40,856 nt of DNA from a virus: positions 1 through 40,856 of the IMG/VR virus record IMGVR_UViG_3300039098_000023; one strand, written 5' to 3'. Every line of letters starts with the position of its first letter. Within the stretch, counting starts at the first letter, position 1. Made by a program: the position numbers and the translations under genes. Under the pieces are notes generated by a model that saw only the letters and a list, made by a program, of their open reading frames with translations, was not told where the DNA came from and did no database searches. Below are positions 6 through 15,653 of the stretch, piece by piece.

Positions 6-161
6 TACATCTTCGATGCACTACGTGTATGCAGGTATCATACCAACGCCACCATACACGAACCATACACGAACCATACACGAACCATACACGAACCATA
101 CACGAACCATACACGAACCATACACGAACCATACCACTACGCGCAGCGCATCGAAGATGTA
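6..161. repeat. 14-bp inverted repeat framing an iteron array
   Basis: The left arm TACATCTTCGATGC (6-19) is the exact reverse complement of the right arm (148-161). The 128-nt interior carries the 11-bp tandem units. As RNA or a cruciform this would place the whole array in a large loop. Confidence 0.85.
51..134. repeat. 11-bp tandem repeat, 7 full copies plus partial
   Basis: The unit accatacacga runs without a mismatch from 51 to 127, followed by a 7-nt partial copy. An 11-bp period is close to one helical turn, so each unit would present the same face of the DNA to a binding protein. Function unknown; iteron-like. Confidence 0.9.
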
Positions 162-662: not shown

Positions 663-707
663 CCATACCTAATAACAAAACAGAGTACGATCATAATTAC
701 GACCAAT

Positions 708-771
708 ACTACTATACTACTATACTACTATACTACTATACTACTATACTACTATACTACTATACTACTAT
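708..771. repeat. 8-bp tandem repeat, 8 copies
   Basis: The unit actactat is repeated eight times exactly, with no interruption. It is unlike the 11-bp array upstream in sequence and period. It could be a slippage-prone microsatellite or a binding array. Confidence 0.9.
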
Positions 772-936
772 AGTAATTTACCGATGTCCTAACAGGATTA
801 TGCACCGCAAACGCAGATACGCACTAGGTTTCGAGAGTACTACCTAGTACCGTAAATTTGGTATGTCCGATGACTAGCATCGTAAGCATTAAGTACCGTA
901 GTGACTATGTTAGTAGTCACACAGAAAACGCAAAAA

Positions 937-10143: not shown

Positions 10144-11541
10144 TTATAATAAGTCAGCTGCTAATTCTGCTAACTCAGATCGCTCACCACTTTTCATTGT
10201 AATATGAGCAGCGATATATTGATCTTTAAACCGTTCAGCGCAAAAAGTAAGACCGTTAGAGTCCTCATCAAGGTAATGATTATCAATCTGATAGGGATCA
10301 CCTGTAATGATAATCTTAGTACCCTCTCCTGCGCGAGTTATGATCGTTTTTATCTCATGTGGTGTGGCGTTTTGACCCTCGTCAAGTAACAAAATCTGAC
10401 CTTTAATTGACCGCCCACGTATATGCTCAAGCGACTCTAGCTCAACATACCCACGCTTAATAAGCTCATCTAGTGGAGTAGTTACACCTGCGCGTTTCTC
10501 GTCTGTAGCTGAGAACTTCTTAGTTTTCTTACCGCCATCACTTCCGAGATCGAACCTACCGTACTCAGGCATTAGTTGCTCAACGTTATCTGAAATAGGA
10601 GCCATCCAAGGACTTAGTTTGTCACTGATATCGCCAGGTAAAAAGCCCATACCCTGATCACCCATAGTAGTAACAGGTCTAGCAACTAATAGACGTTTGT
10701 ACTCGTGGTCAGGTTCCATTACTTGCTCAAGTGCGGCAGCTAAAGCTACCATAGACTTCCCGCTACCCGCTTTTCCAGCGATTGTTACTAGCTTAATGTT
10801 ATCATCCATGAGAACATCGATTAAATACTGCTGCTCTCGGTTTCGTGGAACCAAATCAGAAGGCTCTACGCCGTCATCGATCTTAATAATAGCTTCCTCG
10901 CTAGCGATGTAGCGACCAATGCCTACACTCTGCGTATCACTATGGTTATTCAACTGAACGAAGACGTTAGGGTAAAAGTCACCCTCTAACTCTGAGGTAG
11001 GAATTCCTCCAGCAATGTGGAACGCTGACATCTGCTCAGGCGATACGTATACCTCTGTAGTTCCGTCAAACATTTCATCGAATACTACTTTATCGTTATC
11101 GTAATCTTCTGCTACTAGCCCTAATGCGTCTGCTTTAACTCTAACGTTAACGTCTTTGGACACTAGCACAACATCAACGTCCTGATTGAGCCGTTGAGTT
11201 GCCATAGCCACTGCGATAATACGATTGTCAGCTACTTCCTTACCTAGGTCAGCGGGAATCCAATCCATAACGTCCGTAGGGCTGGTCATAACTTTCACTG
11301 TACCGCCATGTTCAAGTGTTACGCCATCATAAAGTTTGTTATCGGTACTTAGATCATCTAGGTGTCGGCAAGTAGTTCTAATATTTCTACCTACTTCATT
11401 CAGACCTTTCTTTAGTCCGTCCATTTCTTCTAGTACTGTAATTGGAATAATTAGATCGCTATTAGTGAATTTGAATAGCGCTTCTGGGTCGTGGCAAAAT
11501 ACGTTAGTATCTGCTACGAAAATCTTGCGGGGATTTTGCAT
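10144..11541 (-). CDS. phoH: PhoH-type ATPase with N-terminal PIN domain
   Basis: 465 residues, ATG 11541. Residues 1-150 form a PIN nuclease domain (K-I-F-V-A-D-T-N-V-F-C-H-D at 6-18; further acidic sites E-E-M-D and A-D-N-R-I-I-A-V-A). From about 225 the PhoH ATPase follows: V-T-I-A-G-K-A-G-S-G-K-S (Walker A), I-L-L-L-D-E-G-Q-N-A-T (Walker B/DEGQN) and I-I-I-T-G-D-P-Y-Q-I-D. PIN-PhoH (PhoH2) proteins unwind and cut RNA. It is the first protein gene after the tRNA cluster and has no promoter of its own, so it may share the tRNA transcript. Confidence 0.95.
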   Translation of the reverse strand: MQNPRKIFVADTNVFCHDPEALFKFTNSDLIIPITVLEEMDGLKKGLNEVGRNIRTTCRHLDDLSTDNKLYDGVTLEHGGTVKVMTSPTDVMDWIPADLGKEVADNRIIAVAMATQRLNQDVDVVLVSKDVNVRVKADALGLVAEDYDNDKVVFDEMFDGTTEVYVSPEQMSAFHIAGGIPTSELEGDFYPNVFVQLNNHSDTQSVGIGRYIASEEAIIKIDDGVEPSDLVPRNREQQYLIDVLMDDNIKLVTIAGKAGSGKSMVALAAALEQVMEPDHEYKRLLVARPVTTMGDQGMGFLPGDISDKLSPWMAPISDNVEQLMPEYGRFDLGSDGGKKTKKFSATDEKRAGVTTPLDELIKRGYVELESLEHIRGRSIKGQILLLDEGQNATPHEIKTIITRAGEGTKIIITGDPYQIDNHYLDEDSNGLTFCAERFKDQYIAAHITMKSGERSELAELAADLL

Positions 11542-12296: not shown

Positions 12297-12349
12297 GTAA
12301 CTTATAAATCAATACTACATGAATCTTTTTAGCTTGTCAATTGTTAAAA

Positions 12350-13724: not shown

Positions 13725-13964
13725 TCATCTTCCCTTAGAGCAAGGGGATGGTTTATAGTACCACCTAACTCCTATATCGCAGTTATAGGTCTGAGTAGCA
13801 TTTAGCCGCCTAATGTAATTGCGACCTACAAAATACGTCCTCGCTCTATTTATAGCCGAACGGGAGGCTACGCTTCTATCGGAAATAACTACTCCTTCAC
13901 TTACTAGTATTGGACGGCCAGTTATAACGTCATACAGGTACGAACCCTGTGGTCTTTGATGCAT
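13725..13964 (-). CDS. Small hypothetical protein in the tRNA cluster
   Basis: 79 residues from ATG 13964, directly after the tRNA-like gene 13965-14035. It contains VITGRPILVSEGVVISDRSV and a basic end with YFVGRNYIRR and Y-N-C-D-I-G-V-R-W-Y-Y-K-P. The composition is protein-like (basic, aromatic), but the ribosome site is poor. It could be chance. No family recognised. Confidence 0.35.
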   Translation of the reverse strand: MHQRPQGSYLYDVITGRPILVSEGVVISDRSVASRSAINRARTYFVGRNYIRRLNATQTYNCDIGVRWYYKPSPCSKGR

Positions 13965-14035
13965 TACAGCATACGAGGGTTGAACTCGCGTTTCCTCCGA
14001 GCTAGGAGGTGTCCTTACCGTTAGACGAACGCTCT
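13965..14035 (-). tRNA. tRNA-like with 6-nt anticodon loop
   Basis: Acceptor AGAGCGT/ATGCTGT (one mismatch), D arm GTCT/GGAC, T arm GCGAG-TTCAACC-CTCGT. The anticodon stem CCTCC/GGAGG closes on only six bases (TAGCTC), so no anticodon can be assigned. The D-arm sequence recalls tRNA-Glu. No CCA. Confidence 0.55.
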
Positions 14036-14051
14036 ATTCACATCAAATAAG

Positions 14052-14129: not shown

Positions 14130-14140
14130 ATAATTTACTA

Positions 14141-14212
14141 TGGTGTCTGTAGGATTCTAACCTACATTCTTTCAAGCAGACGGCTTAAAAGTCTTACTTA
14201 GACGAAGACACC
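14141..14212 (-). tRNA. tRNA-like, identity unclear (possible GTC)
   Basis: Perfect acceptor GGTGTCT/AGACACC, D arm GTCT-AAGTA-AGAC with a short loop lacking GG, T arm GTAGG-TTAGAAT-CCTAC. The anticodon arm is best read TTAAG-CCGTCTG-CTTGA, giving GTC but with C instead of U at position 33. No CCA encoded. Confidence 0.55.
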
Positions 14213-14219
14213 ACGATTT

Positions 14220-14287
14220 TGGTATATTCGAAATCGAACCACGGCCTCAATTAAGTTGACTGCTCCACCAACAGGAGCTAGATACCT
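14220..14287 (-). tRNA. Degenerate tRNA-like gene
   Basis: Acceptor GGTATC against ATATACC and a good D arm GCTC...GAGC, but the anticodon and T stems pair poorly and there is no room for a variable loop (about 68 nt). A loop CTTAATT would place TAA in the anticodon. Likely a pseudo-tRNA. Confidence 0.45.
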
Positions 14288-14317: not shown

Positions 14318-14393
14318 TGGAGTGTTGAGCGCGGTTCGAACACGCAATCACTTGAGTCACAATCAAGCCGCTAACCGATTTGCGCTTCAACAC
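14318..14393 (-). tRNA. tRNA-His(GTG), CCA encoded
   Basis: 76 nt. Acceptor GTGTTGA/TCAACAC, anticodon arm CTTGA-TTGTGAC-TCAAG (GTG), T arm GCGTG-TTCGAAC-CGCGC, T-CCA. It is the first tRNA after the cluster promoter. The base before G1 is T and the discriminator is T, not the usual G-1/C73 pair. Confidence 0.92.
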
Positions 14394-14435
14394 AATGCTT
14401 ACTGGGTGTATCTCTTTCTTACTAGTCATATATAT

Positions 14436-14464
14436 AAGGTAACACACTTAACTATATATGTCAA
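14436..14464 (-). promoter_or_regulatory. Promoter of the tRNA cluster
   Basis: TTGACA (14459-14464), 17-bp spacer, TACCTT (14436-14441) on the minus strand, ~43 nt before tRNA-His. The -35 is perfect; the -10 is weaker than the others here. Confidence 0.7.
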
Positions 14465-14469
14465 GCATA

Positions 14470-14957
14470 AAATTCTTACAGCAGAAAGTCTCGAACAAAC
14501 CGCTGTACCCATAACCTGACGGGATAGGGATTATCCTTAAGGCCAGTTACGCGCAGGACAATCGTGGGTCGCGTAGTGATTACTCTTGATGCGCTTAATA
14601 CCGTCGAGAACATTGGTAACATAGGCGTGAGTGGCTCTACTTCTTGCTAGTAATGTAAATCAAGCCGCTGGAGTGTATGCCAGTCGTTACTGACGCATCC
14701 TTTGCGCCTAGCTTGATTTACATTACCGTTCCTTTTCATACGACTTGGTATGTAAGATATTAAGTTGCTAGCCGAGTGTTTAAGGATGCCGTATTCTAAA
14801 TCTTAGCGTCACTATGCGCTAGAGTAATACTTTACCATCCCCTGAGCTTCGTACTTAGGTCGAAAGCAGCTACTAACGACTCCATAAAGGTAGAGGAGTC
14901 TCAGGACATTCTCTCCGTGGCTAGTCGGAGCCGCTACGTGTTTAGCACCAACTTATA
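14470..14957 (-). ncRNA. Candidate large structured non-coding RNA upstream of the tRNAs
   Basis: About 490 nt with no plausible gene, a dedicated promoter (14963-14991) and dense pairing. Visible elements: a perfect 16-bp stem (14650-14665 with 14711-14726); an 8-bp pseudoknot between that stem's loop (14695-14702) and 14782-14789; hairpins at 14913-14930, 14878-14900 and 14804-14821; and a terminal hairpin TACAGC/GCTGTA (14477-14507). It ends just before the tRNA promoter. Size, complexity and position beside phage tRNAs recall the GOLLD and ROOL classes of ornate phage RNAs; I cannot confirm membership. It does not look like RNase P or tmRNA. Confidence 0.6.
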
Positions 14958-14962
14958 AATCT

Positions 14963-14991
14963 ATACTACTACATAAACCCGATGAAGTCAA
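14963..14991 (-). promoter_or_regulatory. Promoter of the candidate ncRNA
   Basis: TTGACT (14986-14991), 17 bp, TAGTAT (14963-14968) on the minus strand, predicting an RNA start near 14956. No reading frame or ribosome site follows, which supports a non-coding transcript. Confidence 0.82.
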
Positions 14992-15019: not shown

Positions 15020-15202
15020 TTATCGATACCCATCACGAAACCAACTACGACCTTCTAATGTAAAGCTAGTCTGTCCTACTAAATGTACCATAACGGCTCC
15101 ACATTCAATACAAACTACTACTTTACTCATATCTGCCAGCTTAACGATCTTATCAGTCTCTTCGTGACCACACGATTCACACTTATAATCCTTTAAAGGC
15201 AT
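15020..15202 (-). CDS. FmdB-type zinc-ribbon protein
   Basis: 60 residues, ATG 15202. It follows the FmdB/CxxC_CxxC_SSSS pattern: M-P-L-K-D-Y-K-C-E-S-C-G-H-E, V-V-C-I-E-C-G-A-V-M, then S-F-T-L-E-G-R-S-W-F-R-D-G-Y. The two C-x2-C pairs bind one zinc ion. The family is widespread and its exact role is unsettled; regulation or nucleic-acid contact is usually proposed. It ends the short operon that starts at the promoter 15486-15514. Confidence 0.88.
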   Translation of the reverse strand: MPLKDYKCESCGHEETDKIVKLADMSKVVVCIECGAVMVHLVGQTSFTLEGRSWFRDGYR

Positions 15203-15569: not shown

Positions 15570-15653
15570 TGATAAGCTAATGAGCGACTGACAAGGAGCT
15601 TAGGTCTTTAGTATTAAGAACGAAGCTTCTAACGAAGCTTCATTAGCTTATCA
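15570..15653. repeat. Nested inverted repeats after the basic mini-gene
   Basis: Outer 14-bp arms TGATAAGCTAATGA (15570-15583) and its exact reverse complement (15640-15653) enclose a second hairpin, GAAGCTTC-TAAC-GAAGCTTC. The structure starts 4 nt beyond the stop of the gene 15657-15800, in the place of a terminator, but neither side has a U run. It may be a processed RNA end or a protein-binding site. Confidence 0.8.

Follow-up and report, generated by a model that had tools for sequence, protein, structure and literature searches.

A candidate orphan noncoding RNA at the head of a variable tRNA island in an uncultured T5-like phage

The likeliest reading of a gene-free stretch in an uncultured, T5-like phage, one that we judge somewhat better than an even bet, is that it specifies a transcribed orphan noncoding RNA heading a variable phage tRNA island. 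Counting for this reading are a promoter element that occurs in just two copies, the lack of any ORF or Rfam RNA, a high G+C content, a perfect 16-bp hairpin, the absence of tRNA remnants on the candidate's strand and the place of the stretch in an island whose content varies. Counting against it are a folding energy that, outside the hairpin, equals that of shuffled sequence, the presence of other intergenic stems of 12-16 bp in the same genome, and the lack of a homologue in the searches described below.

The tRNA island and its gene-free stretch

The window, that is, the whole stretch of DNA that was analysed, takes in bases 1 to 40,856 of a virus record that is 114,734 bases (114.7 kb) long. 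The large terminase encoded there is 26-30% identical to those of the best-matching T5-like phages and about 61% identical to those of five IMG/VR contigs, including two 113-kb contigs and a 106-kb one. Its tRNA island extends over about 11.6-14.4 kb on the minus strand, contains ten tRNAs called by ARAGORN together with weaker ones, and is flanked by a PhoH-like gene and a small zinc-ribbon-like gene (Table 1). The candidate RNA has at least ten tRNAs downstream of it on the same strand. In G004, the zinc-ribbon and phoH homologues adjoin, with no tRNA or RNA in between, and in G001 and G005 the interval between the island flanks holds different content, without a match to the stretch. Since the content of the island differs across these three, the candidate belongs to a variable island.

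Several other features were seen in the window and in other phages. A tRNA-like remnant at window 14221-14286 (minus strand), with a damaged T-arm and anticodon arm and a loop around CTTAATT, scores below tRNA thresholds. ARAGORN identified tmRNA genes near phoH in several environmental phages (L322:7395-7714, L323:4429-4737, L350:4211-4559 and others). Near the start of the record, at window 6-161, a 14-bp inverted repeat surrounds 7.6 perfect copies of ACCATACACGA, and a further perfect 8-bp tandem array lies at window 706-772.

An earlier sequence-only reading had described the stretch as free of genes, and this was borne out: no ORF of at least 50 aa was found in 14467-14957 or in 14520-14981, and the longest, at 48 aa, has no visible Shine-Dalgarno site. 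The G+C content of the stretch (0.45) is the highest among the gene-free gaps, the others having 0.32-0.44 and most of them 0.32-0.41. When thresholds were lowered, no tRNA remnants were detected within the stretch on the candidate's strand. A degenerate tRNA array was rejected, as lowering the threshold to 70% yielded nothing on the minus strand beyond an intron-bearing call that is implausible, and a tmRNA was rejected because the stretch was negative with both ARAGORN and Rfam. At window 14718-14736 (minus strand), at the base of the 16-bp hairpin, the sequence AAAAGGAACGGTAATGTAA combines a Shine-Dalgarno-like run, a start codon and an immediate stop. Elsewhere in the same phage, a further stretch of about 430 nt (L128:8129-8574; record 48985-49430) is likewise gene-free and rich in G+C (0.44-0.45); two terminator-like hairpins flank it, and neither Rfam nor BLAST against phages gave a match.

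Table 1. Positions, in window coordinates, of the candidate RNA, its predicted elements and its neighbours
Feature	Position	Strand	Remarks
Noncoding stretch, candidate RNA	14467..14956 (to 14957)	-	No ORF; start inferred from promoter; may run on into tRNAs
Promoter-like TTGACT-N17-TAGTAT	14963..14991	-	TAGTAT-N-GATTTATAAGTT element in common with tRNA-Leu promoter
6-bp hairpin GACTCC/GGAGTC near 5' end	14878..14900	-	14900-14895/14883-14878, predicted p > 0.7
Three-tier imperfect hairpin	14783..14841	-	Predicted pair probability > 0.7 in tiers (14840-14805 region)
Segment GCATCCTT, proposed pseudoknot partner	14782..14789	-	Competes with local pairing to 14836-14841
Hairpin	14649..14727	-	17 predicted pairs, 16 of them perfect Watson-Crick; small stems inside 45-nt loop
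Loop segment AAGGATGC, proposed pseudoknot	14695..14702	-	Chance level in shuffles
Helix	14563-14555/14537-14529	-	Predicted p > 0.7
8-bp predicted hairpin TACAGCGG...CTGCTGTA	14476..14507	-	z = -2.75; may be a weak 3' end; lacks a good T-run
tRNA-His	14318..14393	-	First tRNA downstream of candidate
Weaker tRNA (Asp)	14140-14213	-	In island
Weaker tRNA	13964-14036	-	In island
tRNA-Leu promoter TTGACA-N17-TAGTAT, then TGATTTATAAGTT	12312..12340	-	Matches candidate promoter
PhoH-like gene	10144-11541		One flank of island
Small zinc-ribbon-like gene	15020-15202		Other flank of island

A promoter element in common with tRNA-Leu

The promoter that had been proposed to read into the stretch is present as a promoter-like sequence in the expected orientation (Table 1). 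A consensus promoter scan returned 12 sites against 12.1 in shuffles, so that a single promoter-like site means little. The combination of TAGTAT-N-GATTTATAAGTT with TTGAC at equal upstream spacing is found exactly twice in the 114,734-bp record, the second copy being at 12340, where the -10 element lies 16 nt before the first base of tRNA-Leu. Because this element is common to the candidate and tRNA-Leu only, it looks like a stable-RNA promoter type of this phage. Among the matches listed, no other viral contig of the collection carried TAGTAT-N-GATTTATAAG in a comparable setting. From the position of the promoter, transcription would start near 14956, and the stretch is probably transcribed.

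Two further kinds of promoter arrangement were seen. At G001:59885, G005:79085 and G004 about 79768 (plus strand), all three in relatives, TTGAC followed by TGTGGTATAATA or TGTGCTATAATA makes up a strong promoter directed into a stretch poor in genes, which opens with a short inverted repeat and is possibly a small RNA or a leader. In addition, back-to-back divergent promoters form long inverted repeats, with the -35 element (TTGAC) in the arms, at G001:92083-92198, G004:3410-3459 and G005:36136-36279.

Extent of the putative transcript towards the tRNAs

The proposal that the RNA ends just before a tRNA promoter did not hold up: a search of the minus strand for terminator-like sites came up empty from the candidate as far as tRNA-His, and the sequence at 14465 that had been taken for that promoter falls under the threshold of the consensus scan. 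The length of 490 nt is therefore a guess of the sequence-only reading. A transcript that runs on into the tRNAs, with RNase P cutting it at 14393, is as compatible with the sequence as a 490-nt RNA. In such a scheme, a phage stable-RNA (tRNA-type) promoter would drive leftward transcription from about 14956, which would probably continue into tRNA-His and the tRNAs that follow; an upstream piece of ~560 nt would be released when RNase P cleaves at the 5' end of the tRNA, and the 16-bp hairpin would serve to stabilise this piece or to mark it for processing.

Because no terminator separates them, the candidate may amount to no more than a 5' leader on the tRNA transcript. A tentative alternative, to which we give real if lesser weight, is that the stretch merely serves the tRNA operon as untranslated leader or spacer: genes coming and going in the island would have left it behind, its folding would be incidental, and carrying the promoter would be all that it does. 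A perfect 16-bp stem would be unlikely in a drifting spacer, the composition of the stretch is unlike that of other spacers, and the stretch itself has no tRNA remnants; yet the island is variable and contains both a tRNA-like remnant (14221-14286) and weakly scoring tRNAs, no terminator lies ahead of tRNA-His, and the remainder of the stretch folds at shuffle level, all of which speaks for such a spacer.

One strong hairpin and less certain helices

The perfect 16-bp stem described previously was confirmed. Its arms (14650-14665 and 14711-14726) form an exact inverted repeat around a 45-nt loop with a predicted base-pair probability of about 1.0, and the 101-nt piece around it has a folding z of -5.7. 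The stem exceeds chance, the longest in 500 shuffles of the region being 13 bp. Long intergenic hairpins are nevertheless a habit of this genome, and the 16-bp hairpin alone is therefore no sign of an ornate RNA: perfect stems of at least 12 bp, with both arms within 150 nt, occur at 15 places in the genome, of which 13 are not inside an ORF of at least 70 aa; of five shuffled versions of the whole genome, four gave 0-3 such stems and the fifth gave 14. Between genes, there are about a dozen further perfect stems of 12-16 bp, and one inverted repeat (15570-15653; 14 bp, 56-nt loop) lies 0.9 kb from the 16-bp hairpin.

These counts lend some credit to the possible, if doubtful, reading that the hairpin alone is functional, as an RNase III-type processing site or a gene-boundary hairpin, and is one of a dozen such, the rest of the stretch being filler. 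Against this, the other hairpins share neither sequence nor loop size, some of them are ordinary terminators, and in relatives some such hairpins are back-to-back promoters. A functional hairpin of this kind is compatible with a transcribed noncoding RNA, and the likelihoods that we attach to the two readings are not exclusive.

The finer architecture proposed earlier fared less well. The loop segment 14695-14702 is indeed complementary over 8 bp to 14782-14789, but a pseudoknot between them is at chance level, with four perfect 8-bp pairs in the region versus a mean of 1.6 per shuffle (five when the 16-bp stem is included, P = 0.03 against shuffles), and the partner has competitors: it pairs locally with 14836-14841 at a predicted probability of about 0.8 and could alternatively pair with 14533-14540. 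As for the four or more other stem-loops, three sets of helices are predicted at p > 0.7 (Table 1), but the stretch as a whole is no more stable than shuffles (z about -1.5 to -1.6), and once the hairpin is left out its folding energy matches that of shuffles (z +0.1). The firm part of the predicted structure is thus one strong hairpin, the smaller stems being uncertain. In the same test, the two strands of a genuine ROOL (pMP118) gave z = 0.06 and -1.2. The folding z-score was dropped as an uninformative test for ornate RNAs, since this genuine ROOL scored near zero; because a true ROOL likewise shows no energy excess, the energy test cannot exclude an ornate RNA.

Searches for homologues and known classes

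The stretch had been thought to belong or be related to GOLLD, ROOL or a similar class. Covariance models did not place it in any Rfam family, the positive control being ROOL only. Rfam searches at gathering and at permissive E-values gave no match in 14430-14990. The ROOL model (RF03087), which recovers the pMP118 copy at E = 1e-29, found no match in the stretch or the genome, and the model of the conserved 3' domain of GOLLD (RF02032) found none in the window or the genome, with ROOL again the only control; in relatives, neither model gave anything near its cut-off. Membership in a known ornate-RNA class is therefore not supported by these models.

BLAST of the stretch revealed no homologue in 50,697 phage records, in five relatives, where syntenic relatives lack the stretch, or in ~390 fetched loci, and none of 80 PhoH relatives, several of them with tRNAs, matched it. 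Patterns of paired hairpin arms, which as short exact patterns reach close homologues only, had zero matches in viral contigs and 85k genomes. A 27-nt match in cultured phages was rejected as chance, as was a 17-nt match in G005, which lies inside a large ORF, within its portion corresponding to the 1339-aa ORF of the window. Among the matches listed, those in viral contigs to the hairpin arm, the promoter element, the central hairpin and the 5' domain proved to be chance after re-alignment of their neighbourhoods. Records very near this genome may be outside the collections searched, so that these negatives do not prove absence.

To call the stretch a new class requires homologues with covariation, and none were found in the searches. 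It is accordingly improbable that it represents a new class of large, folded, ornate tRNA-island RNA in T5-like environmental phages, with a GOLLD/ROOL-like role, a dedicated stable-RNA promoter, pseudoknots and possibly self-assembly: its size, tRNA-side position and own promoter would suit such a class, as would the fact that true ROOL also lacks a folding-energy excess (z 0.06 and -1.2), but no collection searched holds a homologue, the pseudoknot is at chance level and only a few helices are well defined.

Comparison with known systems

GOLLD and ROOL RNAs are thought to act on their own. If the preferred reading of a transcribed noncoding RNA is true, the candidate would be a further independent case of phages repeatedly placing large noncoding RNAs of unknown function beside tRNAs, and, with a promoter element that recurs before one of the phage's own tRNA genes, it would help to ask about a tRNA or ribosome role during infection.

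ROOL is a large noncoding RNA that is often found near phage tRNA islands (PMC12286853). The candidate resembles it in being large and noncoding, in its tRNA-side position and in its similar length, but the ROOL model finds the pMP118 copy and nothing in this genome or its relatives. With GOLLD the candidate has in common that it is phage-encoded and lies beside tRNAs, whereas the GOLLD model has no match in the window or genome and GOLLD members, often > 800 nt (PMC12286853), are often longer than the ~490-nt candidate stretch.

Closer in setting are lnc001 and lnc002 of phage K, long noncoding RNAs that adjoin phage tRNA genes, were seen by RNA-seq and have been likened to GOLLD and ROOL solely for where they lie and how abundant they are; lnc001 possesses an early promoter of its own (PMC9241854). 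The candidate is comparable in its position beside tRNAs, but it is likened to them by position and not by sequence, is known from sequence and comes from another phage group. Given these precedents (PMC9241854), the present case, a single sequence, is of moderate interest.

Finally, the candidate resembles the 5' leader of a polycistronic tRNA precursor, in that a tRNA-type promoter precedes tRNAs that are read the same way, with no terminator, but whereas the promoter of tRNA-Leu is 16 nt from its tRNA, here the distance is about 570 nt.
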